A stretch of DNA of 40,971 nt from Anaerolineae bacterium (GTDB taxonomy: Bacteria; Chloroflexota; Anaerolineae; Aggregatilineales; Phototrophicaceae). Position 1 is the stretch's first letter. Each line of letters begins with the position of its first letter. Location of the stretch: the NCBI GenBank assembly GCA_013821665.1, contig JACDGI010000005.1, positions 1 through 40,971 of the forward strand. Direction: 5' to 3'. The position numbers and the translations under genes are program-made. Positions 1,303-36,646 of the stretch are shown here, one piece after another. The notes beneath the pieces were generated by a model. It saw only the letters and a list, made by a program, of their open reading frames with translations, searched no databases and was not told where the DNA came from.

Positions 1303-1581
1303 CTAGTCTATGAATTCTTGAATTAGCTGCTTGCCATATTCTGTTAAAGTATGTTCGCCATGTTTCACTTGCCGAAAAACATTTCTAAACCTTTGATTTA
1401 CATTGGGCGCACCACCGGGTTGATCTAATCGCATCCCCTGAAAAGTCGGATTGTAGCTGGCGTTCCATTTTCCTTCTTCAATGCTAAGATGTTTCCTAAT
1501 TTCGGCGCGAGTGAATACCTCTCTGCCTTCTTGCAGTACGAGTGCTGCAACCCCTTGCATGATATGTTCTGGAATAATCAT
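1303..1581 (-). CDS. Hypothetical protein, 92 aa
   Basis: A compact protein with no signal peptide or membrane segment. The start ATG at 1581 has a GAGG site about 8 nt upstream. The N-terminal half (EGREVFTRAEIRKHLSI) looks like a helix-turn-helix that begins a winged helix. The end (HGEHTLTEYGKQLIQEF) has the 'TxxG' wing/helix pattern of such domains. I recall similar short proteins with 'FxGMRxDxPGGAP' in environmental Chloroflexota and cyanobacteria, but no function is known to me. It lies upstream of and divergent from the mutasome cassette, and there is no evidence of functional linkage. Confidence 0.7.
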   Translation of the reverse strand: MIIPEHIMQGVAALVLQEGREVFTRAEIRKHLSIEEGKWNASYNPTFQGMRLDQPGGAPNVNQRFRNVFRQVKHGEHTLTEYGKQLIQEFID

Positions 1582-1773
1582 CTTCGCCTCTTAGTCAATT
1601 TATCGTCCAACACATTGTATCGTGCAATGGGCAACTACTATGCCAACTGGCTCAAAACTAACAGTCGGCGGCTATACGAGAGACTTCCGCCGGACATCAA
1701 AATTACAGAACAATAGTTTCATTTTTCGCCCCATCTTCTAACCAATTTCAAACCATTGTTCTATATCCAAAAT

Positions 1774-1787
1774 CGAACAGGCGTTTT
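1774..1787. promoter_or_regulatory. LexA/SOS-box candidate upstream of the mutasome cassette
   Basis: The 14-mer CGAACAGGCGTTTT matches the Gram-positive/actinobacterial LexA consensus CGAACRNRYGTTYG at 13 of 14 positions, failing only at the last base. It is 38 bp upstream of the ATG at 1825 that I prefer for imuA. Damage-induced control by LexA is known for imuA-imuB-dnaE2 cassettes elsewhere. Its use here is inferred. Confidence 0.65.
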
Positions 1788-1824
1788 ATGCTGTATAACA
1801 CTTCGTTTGATTTTTGTTATTTAC

Positions 1825-2574
1825 ATGATTGACGTTGGGTGCAATTTGGATCAACAAAGGAATGATCGGCTAGAAGCCATGATCGCTAGTATCCAGCAGC
1901 GTTGGGGAGCTGCTGCGTTACAGCCACTCAGTAGGCTTGCCGTTCGAACTGCATTACCCGGTTTATTGACAGGCTTCGAGATATTAGATGCTGTGTTGGG
2001 AACGCAGGGCATACCACGCGGTCAAACCACTGAAGTGGTTGGCAAAATGACATCCGGCGCGACCACTTTGGTTTATAACGTAGTTGCTGCTGCCCAGCAG
2101 CAAAAACAATATGGCATCTATGTCGATTTGGAAGCCACGTATAACCCGGTTTACGCAACGATGTGTGGTATCGACAACAAGCTGCTCTTTTTAGCGCGTC
2201 CAGATACCGAAATCGCTGCACTGGATATTGCCCGTGATCTCATTCAGCAGGGCAGTGTAGGCGTAATAGTGTTGGATTTGGGGGAAACCCAACCTAATCT
2301 TCGTGATATACGACGATTAGCGACGCAGCTATCCCGTTTCGGTTGTGCCATATTGTTATTAAAGCTGGCTGGCGATGGTGTGAATACGCAGACGATATTA
2401 GGAAATAGTTCGGCTGCACTTCGACTACTTGTTCAACGAGATGAATGGATACTCAAGCGTGATGACATTTCTAGCTACCGGACACTGAACAAAAGAGCGA
2501 GGAGGAAGGGGTTGGAAAGAGAGGGAAAACTCGCTAAGGTTGAAGTTACCAACAAACAACCAAGCGAGAAATAG
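1825..2574 (+). pseudogene. imuA: RecA-like mutasome protein ImuA, 3' end replaced by an IS insertion
   Basis: This is a RecA/ImuA-family ATPase-like protein, the first gene of an SOS mutasome. The frame is open from a TTG at 1756, but that would place the LexA-type box inside the gene, so I favour ATG 1825. RecA-like core: residues 40-60 (GLLTGFEILDAVLGT), a Walker-A-position loop GKMTSGATT at 73-81 in which the usual P-loop Lys is replaced by Ala, and a Walker-B-like strand VGVIVLDLGE at about 145-154. An IS enters codon 216. The sequence beyond it (to 2574, about 33 residues rich in Lys/Arg) is IS-derived. Joining 2470 to 3684 restores the native end (SGYRSSVIVGGRHYGSG... to TGA at 3782-3784), giving 248 aa with a 4-bp ATGA overlap with imuB. 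The truncated product lacks the final beta-strands, so function is doubtful. Confidence 0.85.
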
Positions 2575-3674
2575 CCATGACATCCATCGGCCTTCCTCAA
2601 CTGTATAGTAGCCTTCACAGCTTCATCATGCAAACCTTACCAGATAGCTGCGACACGCGCCTCGCCAATCTGTTGTTCATGATGCGGGGATTGTTCCTCG
2701 CACGGAGTGTACAACTGGATCATATTGCCCGGAAAATGCCTTCACGGGCCAAGAAGTTGAGCAGCGTTAAGCGCTTTCGACGCTTTTTGGATAATCCGTT
2801 GGTGCAAGTGCGAGCGTGGTATGACCCGTTTGCTCGTTTCACCTTATTGTCAGCCGCCAGTGGTGGCGCAGTTCATCTGATTATCGACAGTACCAAAATC
2901 GCCTTTGGCTTTCGCTTGGTGATGGTGAGTGTAGCCTATCGACGACGCAGTCTGCCCATCGCTTGGATGTGGGCGATTGGAACCCGAGGACACACCACCA
3001 CTTGTGTCCAAATAGCACTACTGAACTATGTTCGCAAATTGCTGCCCATCGGTGTACGAACCTCCTTAGTCGGTGATAGTGAATTCGGACGACCCCTCCT
3101 GATTGCCCAATTACAGGATTGGGGTTGGGATTATGCCCTACGTCAACCCGCTGACCACCTCCTATGGTGGCAGGGCAACGGTCAATGGCAACGCCTCGAC
3201 AGTCTCTTGGACGCTCCCGGTTGTCGCTGGCTCGGTTGGACATGGTTGACCCAAGTCCATGACCAACTGACCCATGTGGTCGTCTATTGGCGCAAAGGCG
3301 AGAAACAACCCTGGTTTCTGGCAACCAACCAACGCACCGTTCGGGCAGCAGTCCGCTTGTATCGCCGCCGCATGTGGATTGAACAAATGTTTGCTGATTT
3401 GAAGGGGCATGGCTTCGATTTGGAAAGCAGTCATTTGCGCTCCTTCCTGCGTCTAGGCCGTTTGACTCTAATTGTTTGCTTGTTATACCTCTGGCTTTTG
3501 GCGGTCGGTCGTCAGGTCGAAATCCGTCATCTGGTTGATTTAGTCGATCGCCATGACCGTCACGACTTAAGCATCTTTCGCTGGGGCTGGGACTTTGTTG
3601 AGCGCTGCTTAGCCCTCTCTGACCCCATCCCTCTTATCCAACCTTCAAACCTTTGTTTAGTGTCCGGTAGCTAG
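2471..3674 (+). mobile_element. IS4-like insertion sequence, 1204 bp, complete
   Basis: Terminal inverted repeats of 23 bp (2471-2493 and 3652-3674, beginning CTAGCTACCGGACACT) differ at one position. The element is flanked by a perfect 9-bp target duplication, ATGACATTT at 2462-2470 and 3675-3683. One transposase gene fills most of the element. Direct target repeats of 9 bp or more and a DDE transposase with a Y-R-E-K signature are features of the IS4 family. The element sits inside imuA, and the intact ends, perfect duplication and intact ORF suggest a recent insertion. Confidence 0.95.
2577..3674 (+). CDS. IS4-family DDE transposase
   Basis: A 365-aa transposase that cuts and joins the element ends. 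Catalytic candidates are D104 (in IIDSTKIAF), D167 (in LVGDSEFGR) and E269 within YRRRMWIEQMFADLKG, which reproduces the Y-(2)R-(3)E-(6)K signature. The start ATG lies 2 nt after the TAG that ends the truncated imuA frame, so translation may be coupled to read-through from the imuA promoter; no strong ribosome site is visible. The stop codon TAG is formed by the last three bases of the right inverted repeat. Length and layout are complete for the family, so it is probably active. Confidence 0.93.
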   Translation: MTSIGLPQLYSSLHSFIMQTLPDSCDTRLANLLFMMRGLFLARSVQLDHIARKMPSRAKKLSSVKRFRRFLDNPLVQVRAWYDPFARFTLLSAASGGAVHLIIDSTKIAFGFRLVMVSVAYRRRSLPIAWMWAIGTRGHTTTCVQIALLNYVRKLLPIGVRTSLVGDSEFGRPLLIAQLQDWGWDYALRQPADHLLWWQGNGQWQRLDSLLDAPGCRWLGWTWLTQVHDQLTHVVVYWRKGEKQPWFLATNQRTVRAAVRLYRRRMWIEQMFADLKGHGFDLESSHLRSFLRLGRLTLIVCLLYLWLLAVGRQVEIRHLVDLVDRHDRHDLSIFRWGWDFVERCLALSDPIPLIQPSNLCLVSGS

Positions 3675-3780
3675 ATGACATTTCAGGTTATCGGTCAAGT
3701 GTTATAGTCGGCGGTCGTCATTATGGATCAGGTAAGCGTGTAACTATTGATATTCATGTGGATTTGGATGGGAAGGTACT

Positions 3781-4971
3781 ATGATTGCCTGCCTCCGAAT
3801 ACCTTATTTTGCTGTCACTGTAGCACGTCCATCATACCCGGATTCCGCCTATAAACCGTTTATTCTGGCCCAATATAAAGGCAGACGTGGCACGGTCTAT
3901 GCTGCCTGTGAACTAGCAATACAAATGGGCGTAAAGTCGGGTATGTCTCTCAGCCGCGCCCGTGCGCTTTGCCCTGAAGCTGCATTCGAGATTGCTGCTC
4001 CCAGCCAGACACGTCACGCACTTGAAAGTCTGTTACAGACACTCAGCGATTACAGTCAGTGGATTCAAGCTAAACACAATTCAGCCCAAACAGCAATTAT
4101 TTATATTGACCTCGGCAAGATGCTGCCCAAGGAAGGGGAGTGTATCGCCCAACAGATCATCGAGCGCCTACTTGAGCAAGGGCTAAAGTCATCCATAGGC
4201 TTGGCAAGTGGAAAGTTTACGGCTTATGTTGCCGCTGCAAACGTGCCATCTGGTGAAACCAAATTGATTAAAAAAGGGGAGGAAGCGGCGTTTCTTGCAC
4301 CCATTTCGACGGCCTATTTACCCTTAGATACTGAAAATGCCCGCCGTCTTGAGTTGTTTGGTCTGCGTCATATCGGGCAAGTCCTCAATGTGCCGCGAGA
4401 TGCCGTAATTGAGCAATTTGGAAAGGTTGGCGGACAAATATATCGCCTAGCATTGGGAGAAGATAATCGCCATGTTACAAAATATGTTGCCCCAGTGCAT
4501 AAAACAGTATCACGTCAGTTTGATCCGCCCTTGGTAGACCGGCTGATTTTGGAATCTGTTTTAGCGACATTAGTGAACGAGATCAGTGAGCAGCTCCTAA
4601 GTGAAGGGCTGGCCTGTGAAAAGTTATTGTTAAGTTTGCATCTCGACAACCACACCGAACAAGAAAACGAACGGTTGCTGCATGAACCCCTTAGCAGCAA
4701 AGGGCATCTCTACCGGACAGTTCAACCGCTGTTAGATCGTTTTCGTATCTACCATCCCATTACAGAAATCGCACTCCGGGTCGATAAACTTGCTCCGATT
4801 CAGCCGCGCCAGCTTTCATTGTTTGACCAGCCGCAAACAGAAGACTTGGAGAATGTACTGATCCAAATGTCTGATCGCTATGATGATTGTTTTTATCGGG
4901 TGGAGATACATGGTCATCCATCGGGACTGCCTGAACTGCAATTCCATTTAGCATTGGTTGAGGCCGCATGA
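3781..4971 (+). CDS. imuB: ImuB-like Y-family polymerase homologue (mutasome adaptor)
   Basis: A 396-aa Y-family polymerase fold protein. The N-terminus (MIACLRIPYFAV) aligns with the catalytic strand of Y-family enzymes but lacks the metal-binding Asp. The second acidic motif appears as IIYIDLGKM, lacking the usual Asp-Glu pair, so it should be inactive as a polymerase, as in known ImuB proteins. An HhH-like region (ELFGLRHIGQVLNVPRDAV) follows around residues 195-215. Residues 344-348 (QLSLF) match the beta-clamp binding consensus QLxLF. It should bridge DnaE2, ImuA and the sliding clamp in translesion synthesis. GGGAAGG lies just before the ATG. It originally overlapped imuA by 4 bp and still overlaps the next gene by 4 bp. 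Confidence 0.92.
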   Translation: MIACLRIPYFAVTVARPSYPDSAYKPFILAQYKGRRGTVYAACELAIQMGVKSGMSLSRARALCPEAAFEIAAPSQTRHALESLLQTLSDYSQWIQAKHNSAQTAIIYIDLGKMLPKEGECIAQQIIERLLEQGLKSSIGLASGKFTAYVAAANVPSGETKLIKKGEEAAFLAPISTAYLPLDTENARRLELFGLRHIGQVLNVPRDAVIEQFGKVGGQIYRLALGEDNRHVTKYVAPVHKTVSRQFDPPLVDRLILESVLATLVNEISEQLLSEGLACEKLLLSLHLDNHTEQENERLLHEPLSSKGHLYRTVQPLLDRFRIYHPITEIALRVDKLAPIQPRQLSLFDQPQTEDLENVLIQMSDRYDDCFYRVEIHGHPSGLPELQFHLALVEAA

Positions 4972-5222
4972 CTCGTTTATTTGGGGAAAGTATCCCGATT
5001 GAGGTGGGACTGTTCAATGCCGCTGCTCCTCAAGAATTTACATGGAAAAAACGCAAGCATCAGGTGAAAAAGGTTGCTAACCATTGGCGAATTGATTATC
5101 TGTGGTGGCGCGATCCAATTTGGCGGGATTATTTCAGAGTTGAGACCACAAGTGGGCTAATGCTCACCATCTATCAGGATTTGATAACCGATTTGTGGTA
5201 TTTGCAAATTAGCTATGACTAA
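4968..5222 (+). CDS. Small DUF6504-like mutasome-cassette protein, 84 aa
   Basis: This short protein is encoded with an ATGA overlap after imuB and 2 bp before dnaE2, so it is surely co-translated with them. Its core (RIDYLWWRDPIWRDYFRVET) is rich in Trp/Tyr/Arg and is followed by a short beta-strand pattern (GLMLTIYQDLITDLWYLQ). From memory this is the DUF6504 pattern, which is found fused to the C-terminus of ImuB-type polymerases or as a separate neighbour. The exact role is not established; an accessory role in the mutasome is inferred from position. No signal peptide, membrane segment or catalytic motif is seen. Confidence 0.75.
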   Translation: MTRLFGESIPIEVGLFNAAAPQEFTWKKRKHQVKKVANHWRIDYLWWRDPIWRDYFRVETTSGLMLTIYQDLITDLWYLQISYD

Positions 5223-5224
5223 GC

Positions 5225-8200
5225 ATGATTGATTACATCGAACTCCACGCACGCTCCAATCGCAGTATTTTAAATGCCTCCTCTTCAGCAGAAGATTTGG
5301 TCAAACGTGCGGTCGAACTCCATATGACTTGTTTAGGATTGGTCAATGATAACGTCGTCTATGATGCACCCCATTTTGTTCGTATTGCTCAAAAAGCAGG
5401 TATCAAACCTATTCTTGGTGCGGAACTCACTCTGCATGATCACAGTTGTCTAACTCTGCTGGTCAAGAATGAGCAGGGTTGGCGTAACCTGTCTGCCATG
5501 ATTTCAGTCGCCCAACACAACGCTCCCAAGGGCGAATCGCTGCTTCCAGAAGGCGGTTTGGAAGGGCATACCGATGGATTAATCGCGTTATCTGGCGGCC
5601 AATTAGGACGTATCTCATCGGCGGTATTGCATGGAAATTATCAAGCGGCTGTTAGCGCAGCCAATGAGTTCATAAGGTTATTCGGTAAGGATCACTTTTG
5701 GTTTGAGTTACAGCATCATTTACACCCCAAAGATAACCAGCTTGTCGCCGATCTGGTTGATTTGGCTGGACAAATTGGGATAGGGGTCGTTGCAACCAAT
5801 AATGTCCACTACGCTGTGCGAGACCGTCACAAGTTGCACGATGTACTGCGCTGCATACACTACAAAACCACCCTTGATGAAGCCACCCAGCTTAATTCAA
5901 ATTCAGAGTATTATCTGAAGGCAGGGGAAGATTTAGCGCCTCTTTTTCGGGCATATCCTCATGCGTTAAGTAACACACGCTCCATCGCTGAACAATGCAA
6001 TTTTGAACTGCCCAATGGTCTTCAAGAGCTGCCTATATTCCCGACACCCGAGCAGATGAGTGCCGATGAATATTTACGACAACTTTGTGTCACTCAGGCG
6101 GCTCATCTTCAGTTACCGACCAACGCCTACGACCAAATCGACTACGAATTACGGGTTATTCGTGAAAGTGGGTTATCGAATTACTTTCTAATCGTCTGGG
6201 ATATTGTGCGTTTCGCTCGTGAGCAAGACATCATGTGTCAGGGGCGGGGTTCAGCGGCCAATTCGCTAGTTGCCTATCTTCTGGGCATATCGCCCGTAAA
6301 CCCGCTGGCTCACGATCTGGTGTTTGAACGTTTTTTATCCAGCGAACGGCAGGTTGTACCGGATATAGATATTGATTTTGATGGGGATCGACGCGAGGAG
6401 GTTATCCAATATGTTTATCAACGATATGGTCTGGATTATGCGGCAATGGCTTGCACCTTCGTTACTTTTCATGCAAAAAGTGCCATTCGAGATATTGGGA
6501 AGGCGTTGGGGCTACCCATCGACTTGCTGGGGCATATCACTTCAACTTTAGATACATACCATGCGGATATACTTCGGGAGTCGGCAAGCTTACAGGAAGC
6601 GATTGGCAATCGGATTGGAAGCCAAACGTGGCAGCACATACTCGATTTATGTGAACAAGTTGAAGGCGCTCTCCACTATTTAGGAATCCATAATGGGGGT
6701 ATGGTCATCACTGGCGCACTCATTAGTGATCGAGTTCCCACTGAACCTGCCAGAATGATAGATCGTTATGTCGTGCAGTGGGACAAAGATGGTTTAGCCG
6801 ATGTGGGCATGGTGAAAGTCGATATTCTGGGATTGATGACCCTTACTGCAATTACAGATGCTCTGAAAATCATTGAACAAAGGACAGGACATAGACCCGT
6901 TCTATCCACTCTGAATTTTGATGATCCGTTAGTCTACGACATGATTTGTGTAGGCGATACGGTTGGCATATTTCAAGTGGAGAGCCGCGCCCAAGCGCAA
7001 ATCTTGCCACGTCTGAAACCCCGTGATTTGGATACATTGAAGATCTGTATCAGCATTATTCGCCCCGGCCCAGTCGGGGGAGGCATGGCGAAAGAGTATG
7101 TGTTCCGCAGCGAAGGTGTCAAACCTGTCATTTACTTTCATCCCTTACTAGAAGGGCCGTTGAAAAAGACACTGGGAGTCCTTATTTTTCAAGAAGACTG
7201 CATCAGGATCGCGCATGATTTTGCTAGTTTTACACCCGGCCAAGGCGAATTGCTCCGTCGCGCTTTTGGTGCGAAAGATGCTCATAAAAAGATTGAGAGT
7301 TTGCACCAAGCCTTTATTGAAGGGGCTGTGGCTAAAGGCGTTGACATTGAAACTGCTGAGACCGTTTTTGATATGTTGCGAGCTTTTGGTCATTACAGTT
7401 TTTCCGAGGCCCATGCCGCTTCATTTGCGACCTTGGTTTATTATGTGGCGTGGCTCAAACGCTATCACCCGCAAGCCTTTTACATTGCGTTACTGAATAA
7501 CCAGCCGATGGGCTTCTGGACACCAGCTATTCTGGTCGAGGATGCGCGGCAGCATAATATACCCATTTATGGGGTCGATATTAACAAAAGCGAGTATCGT
7601 TGCACGGTAAAATGGGAGGGCATACAACTCGGTTTTAATTATGTTCAGCAGCTTGGTGAAGCGGATGCCGACCAGATTATCCAAGCCCGTGAACAGCAGC
7701 CATTTGTCAATTTAGAGGACTACTATAGGCGTGTCCAACTCTCACGTCAGGTGAATGAAAATCTAATCGCGGCAGGTGCAATGGATGCTTGGGATCAATC
7801 CCGCCGCGACTTGCTGTGGGCGTTAGGGCTGCTAGATAAACCGGATAAACTTGCACTACGCAGACAAACAAAACCAACTGGTTTACCTCAACTTACAACG
7901 GCTGAAAAAGCGCAAATGGAATATCGCGTAACACATGTATCTACTGGCCCCCATCCGATGGCTTTTTACCGAACGCTGCTGAACAAACACGGTACATTGA
8001 CTAGTCAGCGACTGAATCGGTATCCAGAAGGCAGACGTGTTTGGGTAGCTGGGCAGATTGTTGTTCATCAATCACCACCCACAGCTAAAGGTTTTCATTT
8101 CATTACTTTGCGCGATGAGCGTGGATTTATCAATTTGATTTTGAAGCCCAAAGTCTATGCTCAGTTCCGGCATATTATTCAAGGTACATCCCTACTGCTG

Positions 8201-8296
8201 GCTAAGGGGAAGGTGCAACGACAGGGGGCAGTCACGAATTTAATCGTTGAAAAGTGCGTCCTTCTTAATGAACAAATACTAACGATTATTCCATAA
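5225..8296 (+). CDS. dnaE2: Error-prone DNA polymerase III alpha subunit DnaE2
   Basis: A 1023-aa C-family polymerase, the catalytic subunit of the damage-induced mutasome. Domains in order: an N-terminal PHP domain (HARSNRSIL at residues 8-16), the palm with GRGSAANSLVAYLLGI, the catalytic PDIDIDF motif (D380 and D382) and the third Asp in KVDILGL (D533), fingers (HPLLEGPLKKTLGVLIFQED), an HhH region and a C-terminal OB fold (RVWVAGQIV...FITLRDERG). Length agrees with DnaE2 (about 1000-1080 aa) and is shorter than replicative DnaE1. It is the last gene of the cassette and ends before a strong terminator. Expression now depends on promoters inside the IS or read-through. Confidence 0.95.
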   Translation: MIDYIELHARSNRSILNASSSAEDLVKRAVELHMTCLGLVNDNVVYDAPHFVRIAQKAGIKPILGAELTLHDHSCLTLLVKNEQGWRNLSAMISVAQHNAPKGESLLPEGGLEGHTDGLIALSGGQLGRISSAVLHGNYQAAVSAANEFIRLFGKDHFWFELQHHLHPKDNQLVADLVDLAGQIGIGVVATNNVHYAVRDRHKLHDVLRCIHYKTTLDEATQLNSNSEYYLKAGEDLAPLFRAYPHALSNTRSIAEQCNFELPNGLQELPIFPTPEQMSADEYLRQLCVTQAAHLQLPTNAYDQIDYELRVIRESGLSNYFLIVWDIVRFAREQDIMCQGRGSAANSLVAYLLGISPVNPLAHDLVFERFLSSERQVVPDIDIDFDGDRREEVIQYVYQRYGLDYAAMACTFVTFHAKSAIRDIGKALGLPIDLLGHITSTLDTYHADILRESASLQEAIGNRIGSQTWQHILDLCEQVEGALHYLGIHNGGMVITGALISDRVPTEPARMIDRYVVQWDKDGLADVGMVKVDILGLMTLTAITDALKIIEQRTGHRPVLSTLNFDDPLVYDMICVGDTVGIFQVESRAQAQILPRLKPRDLDTLKICISIIRPGPVGGGMAKEYVFRSEGVKPVIYFHPLLEGPLKKTLGVLIFQEDCIRIAHDFASFTPGQGELLRRAFGAKDAHKKIESLHQAFIEGAVAKGVDIETAETVFDMLRAFGHYSFSEAHAASFATLVYYVAWLKRYHPQAFYIALLNNQPMGFWTPAILVEDARQHNIPIYGVDINKSEYRCTVKWEGIQLGFNYVQQLGEADADQIIQAREQQPFVNLEDYYRRVQLSRQVNENLIAAGAMDAWDQSRRDLLWALGLLDKPDKLALRRQTKPTGLPQLTTAEKAQMEYRVTHVSTGPHPMAFYRTLLNKHGTLTSQRLNRYPEGRRVWVAGQIVVHQSPPTAKGFHFITLRDERGFINLILKPKVYAQFRHIIQGTSLLLAKGKVQRQGAVTNLIVEKCVLLNEQILTIIP

Positions 8297-30205: not shown

Positions 30206-33200
30206 CTATGGTGGGGTGATGGGTGTGGGTGATGAGGTTGCAGTTGGTGTTCCTGTCTTTATGCTTTGCGACTCAATCACCAGCGTATAATTGCCCGATG
30301 TAAATCCCCGACTGCGTACTTCTATTTCATAGATGCCGGTGGCCGGTAAGACATAGTTTTGCAGCACCGACTCATCCTCATGCCCCGGTACAATGCCGTT
30401 CACCGTTTCGAGGAGTGCGCCGTTTGGCCCGTGCAGCACAAAATAGGGATACAGCAGAACCTCAGCATTTTGATTGTCCGAAGGTTTATCAGCGGTCACA
30501 CGGATTGTCACGACTTCGCCGCCTGTCCCATGATAGCGCCATACTTTCCATTTCGGGGGTTCAAGTTGGTCACGCTGTGAACCGATTACCGCCTCATTGC
30601 CTGGATTGAATGTTGGCGAAGGTGTATACGTAACTGCCGTAGCTGTCTGGAAAATAGCGGCACGATTAGTAGCATTTACGGCAGCCGTTGAACTCGCTTC
30701 GGCTTCCAAAGTAGGTGGACTAGAAGTGGGTGTTCGCGTCAATGTTGGCGTGGCTGTTGGTATGGTCGGAGTCAAGGACGGTGTTACGGTTGGAATAGTG
30801 GACGTTACAGTCGGAGTGAGTGTAGCGGTCGTCAGAGTCAAATCAGTTGTGGGAGATGGCATCGCTGTTGGAAAAGGCGTAAGGACAGGTAATTCACCAC
30901 TAACGCACAGCGGCGTGACATTATAAAATTGGCGCTGTTCACAACTAAATGACGGTACGACGCGGTTATCGAGTACCCACTGAATAGTCTCGGCTATGCT
31001 ATCCATCCGCCATATAATGAGTTCATCAACGTAGTCGCCAATGGAAAGAACAGAATGTCCATCATCGCTAAAACTAACATGTCTTACTCCCCAAGTCATT
31101 CCTGAATAACGCTCAACAATTGCGCCACTTGCCACATCCCATAGGAAAAGTTCTAGTTCTCCGCCAACGATACCACCACCCGAAAGAATATGCTGTCCAT
31201 CAGGGCTAAACGCTACCGTATAAATATCGCCTTTATGTCCAATTAAATGGCGAATCGCTATACCACTTGCCACATCCCATAAAATCAATTCGGAGTGCGG
31301 TTCAACACGATACTGACCATCGACTGTATCGTCGCTGCCAGCAGATACAATAGTACGACCATCTGGGCTGAACGCCACACTATAAAGTCGTACTGATTGA
31401 TCGTGCCCAATAAACCTGCGAATTTCTCGCCCGGTGGCTACATCCCATAGAATCAGTTCAGGATTACCCGAATAGGCATCGCCAGTGGCAGAAACCACAG
31501 TACGACCATCCGGGCTAAACTTGACATCCATTACGTCACTTTTTTGGCCGACAAATTGTCGTATTATTTGTCCCGTGCTGCTGTCCCACAAAATCATTTC
31601 ACCGTAATCAGTACCTGAGACAATATACTTACCATCTGGGCTGAAAGCCGTACTACGAATAGGTTTCGTATGTCCACTGAAACTCACAAGTATTTTATTG
31701 TCGGCAAGATTGTAAAGTGTCATCACCCCTTTACCAACATCGGACAAAGGATTGCTTATCGTCAGTCCATTCTTACGATCAGGGCTATAAACTGTTCCGT
31801 GCAAACTTTGATCAAAACCGTACATTCTGAGATCAGGGTTTTGTCCTGTGAAGTTATGGATAATTTGACTGTTTCCGGTATCCCATAAAGTTACCGCACC
31901 CTCGCTCAAGGTGGCGACATGTTCACCATTAGGGCTGAGCTGGCTGCGATCAATCGTGACATTTTCAAATCGGCCTCGATTGATATTAAAGTTTCGGCGG
32001 CTGTAATCATGAATAAGTGAGAAAAATTGGGTATCCCACAGCAGCAGCTTCGGATTTGAGGATTGCGAAATCGTAGTCGCACAGTCCGCACAGTAGTTGA
32101 TGTAATGAGCAGATTCCGTCAACATCTTGCGTCCATCGGCACTGAAAGTGACATCGACACCCGTATCAAAGCCATTCAGACGCTTTTCTTCGGCTAGGTA
32201 TTCAGTGTCCCATACAATCAGCCCACCGCCCTCATCACTGGTGACAAGCCGTTTACCGTCAGGGCTAAAAACGGCGTTGTGGACAGATACATTTGGGTCG
32301 TGTCCGACGAGTTCTTGAATTTCCTCGCCTGTTTTCACATCCCACCAAATGAGTTTGTCACCATATGAAACGATGCGCTTACTATTTGGACTAAATATTG
32401 CGCCATAAATAGAGCCAATAGGCTGCTTGCTAACTTTTAAATCAACTACCTTTTGCCCCGTTCTTGTGTCCCAAATCTCAATGCCGCTGGTATTAGCGTT
32501 ATAACCAGTAACAACCAGCAGCAAATTTCCGTCGGGGCTAAACTGCGGCTCGCTGCCCGGAAAGCGCCCTACTTCTTGACCGGTGGTTACATCCCACAAA
32601 CTGATATTAGGCACGGTAATATCTGAGCCATTGTCGAACGTCACAACTTTGCTTCCATCAGGGCTGAAAAGTGCTTTAGCATCGGCAAGACTCGAAAGAC
32701 CATTTCCAACAATCCGATGGATTTCTTTGCCTGTTTCCACGTCCCATACCAGCATTTCTCCTTCCCGACCAACAGAAAGGAGAGAATGCTCATCGGGACT
32801 CAATACAATATTATTTAAATACTCGTCTGGCCCCACAAAATGGCGAATGATTTTGCCAGTCGCCGTATCCCACATAGTAATTTCATTCTGCTCAGAAATT
32901 GTGAACATATAACGCCAATTAGCAGTAAACACGGCATCCTTGAGATACTCACCAAACATACTGCGTGGGCCGGGTTCATAGGCGATATTGTTCAGTGTGC
33001 GTTGCGCTTGAACTGGCGGATTAGACATGCTGTTGGCTTGTATGGCTAAACCATAGGCTAACGACGGATCGCCATTGTCAAAATTGGTTTGCGCCTGCGC
33101 CGCCCAATACAAACTACGGGCCTCATCGGCACTGCGTTGAGCAGTGGCAAGGCTGCCATTCGGCGCGCTGGTAGATGTGCTTACATCAGCCGCTTTTGAT

Positions 33201-33298
33201 GGAGCGCTCATGGATAAGCCGATACCAATAGTAAACGCGAGGATGATTATTGTAATTGTAAGAAAAGCACGTCGGTGACGGGTGGAAATTTTTGTCAT
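30206..33298 (-). CDS. Very large membrane-anchored WD40 protein (14 blades) with C-terminal PPC-like domain
   Basis: About 1030 aa from the ATG at 33298 (starts at 33319 and 33400 are also open; none has a ribosome site). A basic stretch (TKISTRHRRAF) and a membrane segment (LTITIIILAFTIGIGLSM) form an N-terminal anchor. A short helical region (RSADEARSLYWAAQAQ, then ANSMSNPPVQAQRTLN) resembles the linker that precedes WD40 domains in Chloroflexota STAND proteins. I count 14 blades of the 'FSPDG...LWDxxTG' type, enough for two 7-blade propellers. They end with QWVLDNRVVPSFSCEQRQ, a conserved closing segment. A Thr/Pro-rich linker leads to a beta-rich PPC-like domain (EVVTIRVTAD, TGIYEIEVRSRG). 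It probably acts as an extracytoplasmic binding scaffold; the ligand is unknown. Confidence 0.8.
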   Translation of the reverse strand: MTKISTRHRRAFLTITIIILAFTIGIGLSMSAPSKAADVSTSTSAPNGSLATAQRSADEARSLYWAAQAQTNFDNGDPSLAYGLAIQANSMSNPPVQAQRTLNNIAYEPGPRSMFGEYLKDAVFTANWRYMFTISEQNEITMWDTATGKIIRHFVGPDEYLNNIVLSPDEHSLLSVGREGEMLVWDVETGKEIHRIVGNGLSSLADAKALFSPDGSKVVTFDNGSDITVPNISLWDVTTGQEVGRFPGSEPQFSPDGNLLLVVTGYNANTSGIEIWDTRTGQKVVDLKVSKQPIGSIYGAIFSPNSKRIVSYGDKLIWWDVKTGEEIQELVGHDPNVSVHNAVFSPDGKRLVTSDEGGGLIVWDTEYLAEEKRLNGFDTGVDVTFSADGRKMLTESAHYINYCADCATTISQSSNPKLLLWDTQFFSLIHDYSRRNFNINRGRFENVTIDRSQLSPNGEHVATLSEGAVTLWDTGNSQIIHNFTGQNPDLRMYGFDQSLHGTVYSPDRKNGLTISNPLSDVGKGVMTLYNLADNKILVSFSGHTKPIRSTAFSPDGKYIVSGTDYGEMILWDSSTGQIIRQFVGQKSDVMDVKFSPDGRTVVSATGDAYSGNPELILWDVATGREIRRFIGHDQSVRLYSVAFSPDGRTIVSAGSDDTVDGQYRVEPHSELILWDVASGIAIRHLIGHKGDIYTVAFSPDGQHILSGGGIVGGELELFLWDVASGAIVERYSGMTWGVRHVSFSDDGHSVLSIGDYVDELIIWRMDSIAETIQWVLDNRVVPSFSCEQRQFYNVTPLCVSGELPVLTPFPTAMPSPTTDLTLTTATLTPTVTSTIPTVTPSLTPTIPTATPTLTRTPTSSPPTLEAEASSTAAVNATNRAAIFQTATAVTYTPSPTFNPGNEAVIGSQRDQLEPPKWKVWRYHGTGGEVVTIRVTADKPSDNQNAEVLLYPYFVLHGPNGALLETVNGIVPGHEDESVLQNYVLPATGIYEIEVRSRGFTSGNYTLVIESQSIKTGTPTATSSPTPITPP

Positions 33299-33563
33299 AG
33301 GAAAAATTGAATGGCTCATCACTATTTGTTGATTGCATTCTAATGAGAACAGAATAACCTCACAAGCAGTTGCAGGCACTTGTAGGGCAATCGTAGTCAT
33401 TACGGACTAATTGATAATGGGTTTGAGGTTCTTTTTTAATAGTCGCTTCAGATCCCTCACTGCTGGCCGTGCAATCTCGACTTGAGCAGATATTTTAATT
33501 GTCATATCGAGGGAATCTGTTAGTTTGATAGCTGGGATTATGGGGCAGGGCAGGTTATTTTCT

Positions 33564-34189: not shown

Positions 34190-35161
34190 CTATCCATACG
34201 GATTCGGCACCGTCTTCGCCAACTGCTCAGCTTCCATCGCATGAGCATAACCCATTGTGGTTTCACCGCGTTTGTGACGGGCAATTTTCTGAGTGGTATG
34301 CAGCGGCACATTCTTCTCCAGCAAATTCGTTACTAAGGTGTGCCGTGCATCATGCGGCATCGCGTCATAGGGACGCATGAGTTCATACACGGCTCCCGAC
34401 GCAATCGGCTTGTCTACGCCCAGATGACCGCCTTTACGGATGGCACAGATGACATACATCCGATTCTCGCCCTGAACCGATAGCACTTGGACATCACGCC
34501 ACTGCTGGAGGATGGTCTTCAGATCGCCCAACATCGGAATTTCGTCGGACTCGTCTTTAGCCCGTTTCTTGCCGCCCACGACCTTAATCACGCTGCGATC
34601 AAAATCTAATTGTGACCATTTCAACTGGCGCAGTTCCTCCCGTCGGAGTCCGGCAAAGAAGAGCAGGGCATAGAACGCGCCATTTCGGGCTTTGAGCAGC
34701 GGATTGGAGGCGCTGGCGTTAAGGGCGGCATATACGGTTTGAGTTGGCAGCCGTTTACCGCCGCGCTTGTGCGAATTCGTCCCACCCCACGACGCATCAA
34801 TCTTGTACAACTTCATGGCCTGTAACTGTCGCAGATAGAAGGCAGCCGTTTCATCGGAACTGGCGGCGATGGCCTCTACCGATTTACGCAGGTGCGACAG
34901 CATGTTTTGTAACGTGGTGCGGCTGTAGTGGTCTTTGAGCGTTTGGAAATAGGCATCAATGTAGATGACTTCAAAGTTCATGGGATTCAAGTTGTGGACG
35001 ACACACCAGACTGTCCAGCGCTTTTCGGTCTGGGTGTACTGGTTGACGGTGGAGGCTTTGCGACCGGCGCGGCGCAGCACCTCATAGTTGGCGCTGGCGA
35101 TGTCATCAGCGGTCATGCTGGATGGATCATTGGAAGTTTCGATGAGGGTGAGGTTGTCCAT
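34190..35161 (-). CDS. Tyrosine recombinase/integrase
   Basis: A 323-aa site-specific recombinase. ATG 35161 has TAGGAG 5 nt upstream and is preferred to the in-frame start at 35245. N-terminal SAM-like DNA-binding domain: residues about 38-100. Catalytic domain: R173 (FFAGLRREEL), K198/199 (VVGGKKR), H270-x-x-R273 (PHDARHTL), H296 (ARHKRGETT) and the nucleophile Y305 (TMGYAHAME), all in the expected order. It could catalyse integration or excision of a mobile element, or a chromosomal recombination. No att repeats were found. The neighbouring small membrane-protein gene follows directly. Confidence 0.9.
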   Translation of the reverse strand: MDNLTLIETSNDPSSMTADDIASANYEVLRRAGRKASTVNQYTQTEKRWTVWCVVHNLNPMNFEVIYIDAYFQTLKDHYSRTTLQNMLSHLRKSVEAIAASSDETAAFYLRQLQAMKLYKIDASWGGTNSHKRGGKRLPTQTVYAALNASASNPLLKARNGAFYALLFFAGLRREELRQLKWSQLDFDRSVIKVVGGKKRAKDESDEIPMLGDLKTILQQWRDVQVLSVQGENRMYVICAIRKGGHLGVDKPIASGAVYELMRPYDAMPHDARHTLVTNLLEKNVPLHTTQKIARHKRGETTMGYAHAMEAEQLAKTVPNPYG

Positions 35162-35605
35162 GCGGACTCCTAGAGGGGTGTTTTGAGGTACTTCTATTAT
35201 ACCACGATCAGTGCGATAGATGACGATAATCCTTATTTTAGTCACCTATTTTGAGGGTCAAAAACGTCAATCTTGACCTTATGTTTTGAAGCAAGTGGGG
35301 CAGGTTTCAAGAAACAGTTTTAAGGGATTAAATACGAAGTTAATGTAGCGAAAAGGAAGCGGTCACAAAGTCTCCTGAAAACCAACGTTTTTCGGAGATT
35401 GGATTTGTCCTGTAAAGCCCGCTTTATCAATGTTAACGCAAAGTATTCAAGCCGCTTTAATTGATCATCATTTCCATCGAATTGCAAGGCAGCCTTGTTG
35501 ACACATACCTTTACGTTAAGGGAATAAAAATACCCTACCTATACACCGATTGCCCTACGCAATTCTGCTGTCGATTGACGCGCGTGAGTTCACAGAGCTA
35601 CGCTG
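35162..35605. other. Spacer between the recombinase and the tandem propeller genes
   Basis: About 444 bp with no convincing gene. It holds a candidate promoter for the next gene: TTGACA at 35498-35503 and GAATAA at 35522-35527 (18-bp spacing), moderate only. A short imperfect hairpin (TCTCCTGAAAA to TTTTTCGGAGA around 35372-35399) is present. No RNA gene recognised. Confidence 0.4.
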
Positions 35606-35623
35606 ATGGGAACAGGGGGAATA

Positions 35624-36646
35624 ATGCGTAAACAATTATGTCGATGGTTACTAATTCTACTGCTCAGTACGATCGCCACGAGTGGTTTTCGGGTGGGCGC
35701 ACAAGCTGTTGGAACAACAGCAATTGCAACGCCGCAAACTCAGACCATCATCGCTACCACTTGGAGTCCCGATGGCAGCAAGATTGCCAGAAGTGGTACT
35801 GGAGGGTTTTTAAGTATTTGGGATGCAAATACGGGGAATCTGATACGAAATTTCATAGGTCTTTCTGGAACTATATACACAGTCGCTTGGAGTCCTGATA
35901 GCACTAAAATCGCGAGTGCTGGTGATGATAAACTCATCCATATCTGGAACGTCTCAAACGGACAATCGTTAGCTAATTTAATAGGTCACAATGATAGTAT
36001 TTTATCATTAGATTGGAGTCCAGACGGTAGCAAAATAGCTAGTGTTAGTGCAGTTGAACACTTGAGCTTGCGAATATGGGATACAGCTACTTTTCAACAA
36101 CTCAATGCATTTCAGGCAGGAAATCTACAGTCAGTTAAATGGAGCTTAGATGGTAGCAAGATTGCAGTTGTAAATACCAATGCTGGTATCGTGATTGTAG
36201 ATCCACTTGCGACTATTCCCATACAAAATTGGGTCGATTACCTCGTCGGACCAAACTCGAGTGTTAGCGGAAGTGCTGGGTCGATGGCGTGGCGAAACGA
36301 CAACACTACTATCGCCGTAGGATATTTTGATGGGAAAATCTACTTATGGAATGTAGCAACCAATCAACAAGTAAGTGTTCTACAAGGACACACAGGCTGG
36401 GTTGGGTCGTTAAGTTGGAGTCCAGATGGAACCCAGCTTGCCAGTGCGAGTAATGATGGAACGATCAAACTATGGAATGTTGCAACAGGTGAGCAAATCG
36501 CCAGTTTTACCAAACCACAATCACTCACCACATCCATCGCATGGAATCCTGATGGCAGTCAATTAGCTTATGGGGATGGCACAGACCTCAAAATTGTAAC
36601 GGTGGCTGATTTGCTCACCCCACCAACGGCAGACCCACAGCGCTAG
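35624..36646 (+). CDS. Secreted 7-blade WD40 beta-propeller, first of a tandem pair
   Basis: 340 aa from ATG 35624, preceded by AGGGGGAATA (an in-frame ATG at 35606 lacks a ribosome site). Signal peptide: MRKQLCRWLLILLLSTIATS then GFRVGAQ. Seven blades of 'AWSPDGSKIAS...IWNV' follow, e.g. TVAWSPDSTKIASAGDDKL and SLSWSPDGTQLASASNDGT, enough for one complete propeller. The end is VADLLTPPTADPQR. It is a paralogue of the next gene, sharing the 'TSGFR' signal region and the end. Probably a secreted interaction module; no ligand or enzyme domain is seen. Confidence 0.88.
   Translation: MRKQLCRWLLILLLSTIATSGFRVGAQAVGTTAIATPQTQTIIATTWSPDGSKIARSGTGGFLSIWDANTGNLIRNFIGLSGTIYTVAWSPDSTKIASAGDDKLIHIWNVSNGQSLANLIGHNDSILSLDWSPDGSKIASVSAVEHLSLRIWDTATFQQLNAFQAGNLQSVKWSLDGSKIAVVNTNAGIVIVDPLATIPIQNWVDYLVGPNSSVSGSAGSMAWRNDNTTIAVGYFDGKIYLWNVATNQQVSVLQGHTGWVGSLSWSPDGTQLASASNDGTIKLWNVATGEQIASFTKPQSLTTSIAWNPDGSQLAYGDGTDLKIVTVADLLTPPTADPQR

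Follow-up and report, generated by a model that had tools for sequence, protein, structure and literature searches.

In the text of PMC12926913, 11 mutasome types are distinguished, even the most reduced ImuB is described as retaining the ImuB-C domain, and the combination of iPolY with ImuB-C is treated as an ImuB in split form that may be a precursor. RecA has been proposed as the partner in split systems that lack ImuA (PMC6511836, PMC12926913). Interruption of an imu operon by an insertion sequence (IS) has also been described: in Pseudomonas aeruginosa CLJ such an operon carries CLJ-ISL3, which the authors took as inactivating (PMC7643977). Here we describe an imuA-imuB-dnaE2 cassette of an uncultured Anaerolineae bacterium (Chloroflexota; GCA_013821665.1, contig JACDGI010000005.1, positions 1-40,971, forward strand; this stretch of 40,971 nucleotides is hereafter called the window), in which an intact IS4-family element lies within the 3′ end of imuA.

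The cassette shares with the classical ImuA-ImuB-DnaE2 mutasome a RecA-like ImuA, a Y-family ImuB with a clamp motif, DnaE2 and LexA-type boxes, but differs in that its ImuB lacks ImuB-C, which is encoded by a separate gene. With the ImuA-less split cassettes it has in common a short Y-family protein, a separate ImuB-C of about 80 aa and dnaE2, in the same order; unlike those of the Deinococcus type it has an imuA (now broken), and no lexA was seen beside the cassette. In the Pseudomonas case, too, an imu mutagenesis operon is interrupted by an IS, but it involves another IS family in another phylum, whereas the IS in the window is sense-oriented, affects the final 32 codons of imuA and sits in a cassette with a split ImuB.

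An IS4-family element in the 3′ end of imuA

The IS occupies positions 2471-3674 (1204 bp, + strand) and runs in the same direction as the operon. Its terminal inverted repeats, at 2471-2493 (left, + strand) and 3652-3674 (right, − strand), are complementary at 22 of 23 positions, and it is flanked by two copies of a 9 bp target-site duplication (TSD), ATGACATTT, at 2462-2470 and 3675-3683 (both + strand), a sequence that occurs nowhere else on the + strand of the whole window. Nearly the entire IS is taken up by an intact transposase gene (2577-3674, + strand, 365 aa) that starts 2 nt past the stop codon of the truncated imuA. Model NF033591 for the IS4 family recognizes the transposase (177.1 bits, cut-off 152), as does PF01609 (42.8 bits, cut-off 23), and its translation contains YRRRMWIEQMFADLK, which fits the IS4-family signature Y-(2)R-(3)E-(6)K. 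A single DDE transposase, inverted ends and direct repeats are common to the element and the IS4 family; within that family its ends, CTAGCNACCGGACA, mark a small lineage found in at least five of the 101 genomes used for the IS and ImuA comparisons, the window's own among the five (17 of the 101 belong to its genus).

The ends of the element are independently confirmed by a congener, G015 (genomes are numbered G and loci L), because the same 1204 bp unit recurs there at another site with a TSD of its own, TTATGCTGA. The two elements are 90.9% identical in DNA (1094 of 1204 positions) and 97% in protein, with 88 synonymous and 12 non-synonymous differences between the transposase codons (non-synonymous divergence, dN, 0.020; synonymous divergence, dS, 0.47), and the lexA genes of the same two genomes are 81.0% identical at the DNA level. 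The low dN/dS and the contrast with lexA fit a functional element that would move between lineages. When the best four candidates per genome were scored, a DNA match at E ≤ 1e-20 was obtained in at least five of the 101 genomes, the window's own included, and G071 holds three related copies with 9 bp TSDs (TGGGCCAGA, CAACGAAAT and GTCCCTCAA). Seven two-ended copies were inspected, that in the window among them, and five have a clean 9 bp TSD; the copy in G044 has none and that at L238 in G071 is ambiguous. The window's own genome contains no second near-identical copy, only incomplete matches of 81-85% and a 51 bp left-end piece of 94%.

The insertion is thus one simple transposition of an intact IS4-family element into the 3′ end of imuA, with duplication of 9 bp. 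A preliminary description of the window had reported a 1204 bp IS4-like element with near-perfect 23 bp inverted repeats and a 9 bp duplication, recently inserted in imuA. The ends, the transposase models and the G015 copy agree with it, and relatives carry the element with different TSDs; a recent IS4-family insertion is supported.

Two further observations concern the junctions. The target to the right of the insertion (3684-3697) resembles the left end of the IS (2471-2484) at 9 of 14 bases, a likeness to the IS end reached by 75 of the 40957 14-mers of the window, and it leaves a native-like SYR in the fused protein. A fold-back structure protecting the start of the transposase gene was considered and rejected (RNA fold z = -1.87, with 6 of 200 shuffles folding equally well).

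The severed imuA and its ancestral end

The 5′ part of imuA is fused in frame to the end of the IS (1825-2574, + strand) and encodes 216 native residues followed by 33 IS-coded ones, up to a TAG stop at 2572-2574. Joined-frame analysis places the severed 3′ end, in which the imuA frame is still open, at 3684-3784 (+ strand). Joining the flanks at 2470/3684 reproduced exactly the ancestral frame proposed in the preliminary description, namely 248 codons from the ATG at 1825 to a TGA at 3782-3784 that overlaps the imuB ATG at 3781 (ATGA). Two details of that proposal needed adjustment: the IS-coded, largely basic tail is indeed 33 residues long, but the native residues it replaces number 32 (217-248) and not 33; and the ATGA overlap, said to run throughout the cassette, recurs between imuB and the next open reading frame (ORF; 4968-4971) but is absent between that ORF and dnaE2 (5222/5225).

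The 101 genomes were searched with the joined ImuA protein, a match being classed as ImuA-type if it extended past residue 215, since RecA matches stop near residue 152. ImuA-type matches were found in 19 of the 101 genomes, including the window's own, and in three of the 17 members of the genus (G000, G015 and G012). The nearest intact ImuA, that of G015, is stop-free and shows 52% identity to the joined frame across residues 5-242. In an alignment of 19 rows (17 relatives and the two versions of the window protein, with G094, whose imuA at L062 has an in-frame stop, left out), all 17 relatives continue through the segment severed by the IS; conservation there is moderate, with a glycine at residue 217 in at least 90% of the rows. 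The ancestral end is therefore borne out at the protein level by the uninterrupted imuA of G015 and others, and no relative was found with the same insertion site empty at the DNA level.

The window protein is a homologue of the RecA core without the RecA C-terminal domain, encoded ahead of imuB and dnaE2, and the name ImuA rests on this gene context and the RecA-like core. When aligned to individual RecA chains, the 19-row profile covers them from the N-terminus as far as residues 264-293, and the IS sits just ahead of the last two conserved stretches of the RecA-like core. In RecA these two stretches are beta-strands. Against an ImuA profile built from the relatives alone, scores of 252.4, 233.5 and 224.2 bits were obtained for the joined protein, the present fused protein and a version ending at residue 216, respectively. 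A previous two-hybrid study in yeast, cited in PMC11791113, removed 40 C-terminal residues from mycobacterial ImuA′, which seemed to abolish binding to ImuB; by analogy, the ImuA of the window is probably dead.

Upstream LexA-type boxes and probable read-through

Two LexA-type boxes precede the cassette on the + strand: CAAACCATTGTTCT at 1749-1762, 76 bp before the imuA start, and CGAACAGGCGTTTT at 1774-1787, 25 bp further downstream and 51 bp ahead of the imuA ATG. The box pattern had been seen upstream of lexA before the paired-box test was designed; this looser test was adopted after a first look, in place of an exact GAACN4GTTC search that proved too strict (12 of 70 loci). Boxes of this type precede lexA in all six genomes examined, the window's own included. 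None of 300 shuffles reached the box-pair score of the window's upstream region, and none of 300 reached the summed best-pair score of 19 imuA upstream regions (243 versus 191.4 ± 4.0 for shuffled sequences); the regions of L054 (p 0.76) and L058 (p 0.20) have no box pair.

A simple consensus scan of positions 1500-4000 gave no sigma-70-like promoter on the + strand, other promoter types being outside the scan, and two sites on the − strand where 3.2 sites would be expected by chance; a simple scan of the same interval gave no terminator. An outward promoter or a terminator within the IS was rejected on the same scans, with the same restriction as to promoter types. The imuB ATG is preceded at 4 nt by a Shine-Dalgarno-like GGGAAGG. 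Because the native LexA-type region is intact, the IS is sense-oriented and no IS promoter or terminator was found, SOS read-through is the simpler reading, and imuB, imuB-C and dnaE2 are probably still made in this way, with the transposase made along with them. The preliminary description had suggested that imuB-dnaE2 might be driven by IS-borne signals, for which we found no support in the + strand scan or in the native control region. Its broader proposal, that the damage-tolerance system may be inactive or altered, is likely to hold for ImuA itself.

The genes downstream of the insertion

The imuB gene (3781-4971, + strand) encodes a Y-family (IMS) protein of 396 aa that matches PF00817 and PF11799. 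Its clamp motif, QLSLF, lies at residues 344-348, and Q-x-x-L-[FW] is present in all 12 rows of the alignment. The tail that follows may carry a RecA-NT-like motif, to judge from a weak hhalign match to the ImuA N-terminus (probability 37-39%, E 3e-4 as a single comparison). PF20114, the ImuB-C domain, has no match in the 396 aa protein and sits in the next gene, a stand-alone ImuB-C (DUF6504) of 84 aa (4968-5222, + strand; 34.4 bits, cut-off 24.2). The dnaE2 gene (5225-8296, + strand) is open throughout and encodes an error-prone DNA polymerase of 1023 aa (NF004225, 1002 bits, cut-off 939); searching the window's genome with DnaE2 returned this gene and one partial match of 38% identity only.

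Two alphaproteobacterial ImuB proteins end in the PF20114 domain, at residues 431-504 of 507 in Methylovirgula and 527-598 of 603 in Sphingobium, and that of a Cupriavidus plasmid has no match, so that two of three proteobacterial ImuBs carry it. In Deinococcus aetherius the domain forms a separate 81 aa gene in a lexA-Y-polymerase-dnaE operon. With a profile of the Chloroflexota ImuB-C, the Deinococcus gene is matched at E 1e-10 and the two alphaproteobacterial ends at 2e-4 and 3e-4. Since DUF6504 ends the alphaproteobacterial ImuBs and is a separate gene here, we equate it with ImuB-C and regard the ImuB of the window as split. Among 16 stand-alone Chloroflexota ORFs compared with PF20114, six pass the cut-off, nine match below it and one (L065) does not match; the Pfam model is insensitive here, and the identity of these ORFs rests on position and alignment. 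Rows L057 and L061 were in wrong frames and were left out of the ImuB-C alignment (A4), and the correct L057 frame was included in the PF20114 scan.

Cassette architecture in Chloroflexota and other phyla

Twenty-one loci were tabulated, all but L100 and L101 picked for having imuA. The 3′ end of imuB is present in 18, and in each of these 18 imuB-C lies in a separate frame; the three without it are L061, cut by a contig end, and L053 and L062, described below, and in L058 and L063 imuB itself is frameshifted. An apparent imuB-imuB-C fusion in G071 (an open frame of 516 aa, or 499 aa in another reading) was rejected, the imuB profile spanning two frames in what appears to be a frameshift. An imuB-C profile search found the gene in 172 of 400 Chloroflexota genomes. 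From these we hand-picked 20 loci, not a representative set: 11 have imuA, ten with a split imuB and one fused (L227), and nine have no imuA in the stretch examined. One of the ten, L212, matches L100 in length and scores; it apparently represents that contig again and was not counted twice. Among the nine, L220 is truncated by a contig end within imuB, L218 is situated near the start of its contig, imuB is missing from L222, L228 has the fused form, and in L229 imuB-C lies within the dnaE2 open frame.

A broader sample comprised the 80 best DnaE loci from a search with the DnaE2 alignment and four plasmid loci. There, a separate imuB-C without an imuA match was found in eight Bacillota loci and one Deinococcus locus, and imuA together with a separate imuB-C in two loci only, Chloroflexota L100 and L101. 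Our first ImuA profile missed the annotated ImuA of Sphingobium (L085), hence a recheck with a wider profile, which at E ≤ 0.05 gave no imuA in those nine loci or in the nine Chloroflexota loci, the rest of these genomes not being searched. No relative was confirmed when named genomes were scanned for ImuB. A DnaE2 tree with 34 rows and no true root groups the 12 Chloroflexota sequences in a single clade (100/99), in which the window and G015 pair (100/99); the Bacillota split systems and the proteobacterial ones fall in other clades, and the Deinococcus branch is very long. The architecture of ImuA, split ImuB and DnaE2 is well supported, recurs in Chloroflexota and is absent from the published mutasome types in those text sections with which we compared it (figures and supplements aside).

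Several loci show further variation. G015 has, besides its close cassette, a second and more distant imuA-imuB-imuBC-dnaE2 cassette (L065) whose ImuA is 33% identical. In G012 (L055, 3829-4461) imuB-C and dnaE2 are separated by a PIN-like gene (DUF5615) on the other strand, and in G059 (L068, 3929-5158) by a DUF1963 gene. In G037 (L053, 4110-4475) the start of imuB runs in frame into mid-dnaE2, an apparent deletion, and is followed by a phage-integrase-family gene. In G094 (L062) imuA has an in-frame TAG and the imuB match reaches only to profile position 232, with no further part of imuB in the rest of the contig, pointing to a damaged cassette or an assembly fault. Away from the cassette, the window itself contains a phage-type integrase gene (PF00589) at 34190-35245, between two WD40-repeat genes (30206-33400 and 35606-36646).

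Weighing the explanations

We consider a simple transposition, a likely non-functional ImuA and downstream genes still SOS-inducible by read-through to be the best account of the locus, with a probability of roughly 0.7. The IS4-family element transposed once, entering imuA near its 3′ end with a 9 bp duplication; in the resulting ImuA the basic tail probably stands where the RecA-like core had its final two strand-like stretches, and the protein would no longer serve the mutasome. Transcription would start at the native LexA-type promoter region and cross the sense-oriented IS, leaving imuB, imuB-C and dnaE2 inducible and making the transposase a passenger of an SOS operon.

Several results weigh against this account, some of which are taken up with the rival explanations below. 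The fused ImuA fails the NCBIfam model NF033429 (41.5 bits, cut-off 150), although that cut-off is not a biological definition. AlphaFold models of the intact and fused proteins, built from three-row alignments, reached a mean predicted local distance difference test (pLDDT) score of only 60 and 57, and with values below 50 in the tail they were set aside as evidence on this region. Misfolding is a possible cause of the two-hybrid loss in mycobacterial ImuA′, and the predicted ImuB-binding surface on that protein is G97-M144, not the C-terminus (PMC11791113); because of this, any loss of ImuA function here would act through folding rather than contact.

The rival that survives best, although still unlikely, is that the whole mutasome is inactive and decaying, with the IS as one lesion among others. 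DnaE2 has changed faster in the window than in G015 (128 versus 73 and 146 versus 60 lineage-specific sites with two outgroups), which may reflect relaxed constraint on the polymerase and would then favour a decaying operon. ImuB-C is accelerated with two of three outgroups and ImuA with one of four, and the cassettes of two other relatives, G037 and G094, appear damaged. Against decay, imuB, imuB-C and dnaE2 are all full length, the clamp motif is present, and ImuB is accelerated with none of three outgroups (45 versus 41, 37 versus 37 and 40 versus 42 sites).

It is also rather unlikely that the cassette works without ImuA, with RecA in its place as proposed for the split systems of Deinococcus type in the two reports cited above. 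The downstream genes are open and full length, as this would require, and a separate ImuB-C without an imuA match in the stretch examined is known from cassettes of Chloroflexota (L213, L230 and L231, and L226, which has no dnaE2 match), from the eight Bacillota loci and from Deinococcus (L086, annotated without imuA), where the wider ImuA profile likewise finds none. The possible RecA-NT-like motif behind the ImuB clamp motif would suit such a partner, but the match is weak, and an ImuB that co-existed with ImuA in this lineage may be specific for ImuA. That the IS switches the operon to the ImuA-less, RecA-served type and at the same time makes the transposase DNA-damage-induced seems, on the sequence, quite improbable.

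A functional fused ImuA, to which the IS supplies a tail of similar length (33 versus 32 residues), is more doubtful still. SYR takes the place of the native GYR, and the IS tail adds 9.3 bits over bare truncation, a gain matched by 13 shuffled and 24 random tails out of 2000 each (about 1% by chance); it is thus slightly native-like, and partial function is conceivable. The native tail, however, adds 28 bits, the IS tail lacks the conserved glycine at 217, and the likeness was spotted post hoc. Finally, an assembly artefact or a minority variant is very improbable: the assembly is incomplete, fragmented and partly contaminated (8.13 Mb in 1025 contigs, 88% complete, 6.48% contaminated), leaving a mixed population possible, but the TSD is exact, the element ends are positioned as in the G015 copy, and no other near-identical copy able to cause a misjoin is present.

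Implications for mutasome evolution

As an event, the insertion is ordinary in itself: interruption of a stress-mutagenesis operon by an IS was already known, and the window adds one case. The part worth following is the setting, a split ImuB in a cassette that contains ImuA. The locus amounts to a natural experiment, in which imuA is interrupted close to its 3′ terminus and the remaining mutasome genes keep their full length, in a phylum that has cassettes both with and without imuA; for this reason it can be tested directly here whether RecA is able to replace ImuA. The identification of DUF6504 as ImuB-C, together with the recurrence of imuA and split imuB in Chloroflexota, bears on the evolution of the classical mutasome, and it is plausible that the combination of ImuA, split ImuB and DnaE2 stands midway between split systems served by RecA and the classical cassette of ImuA, ImuB and DnaE2.

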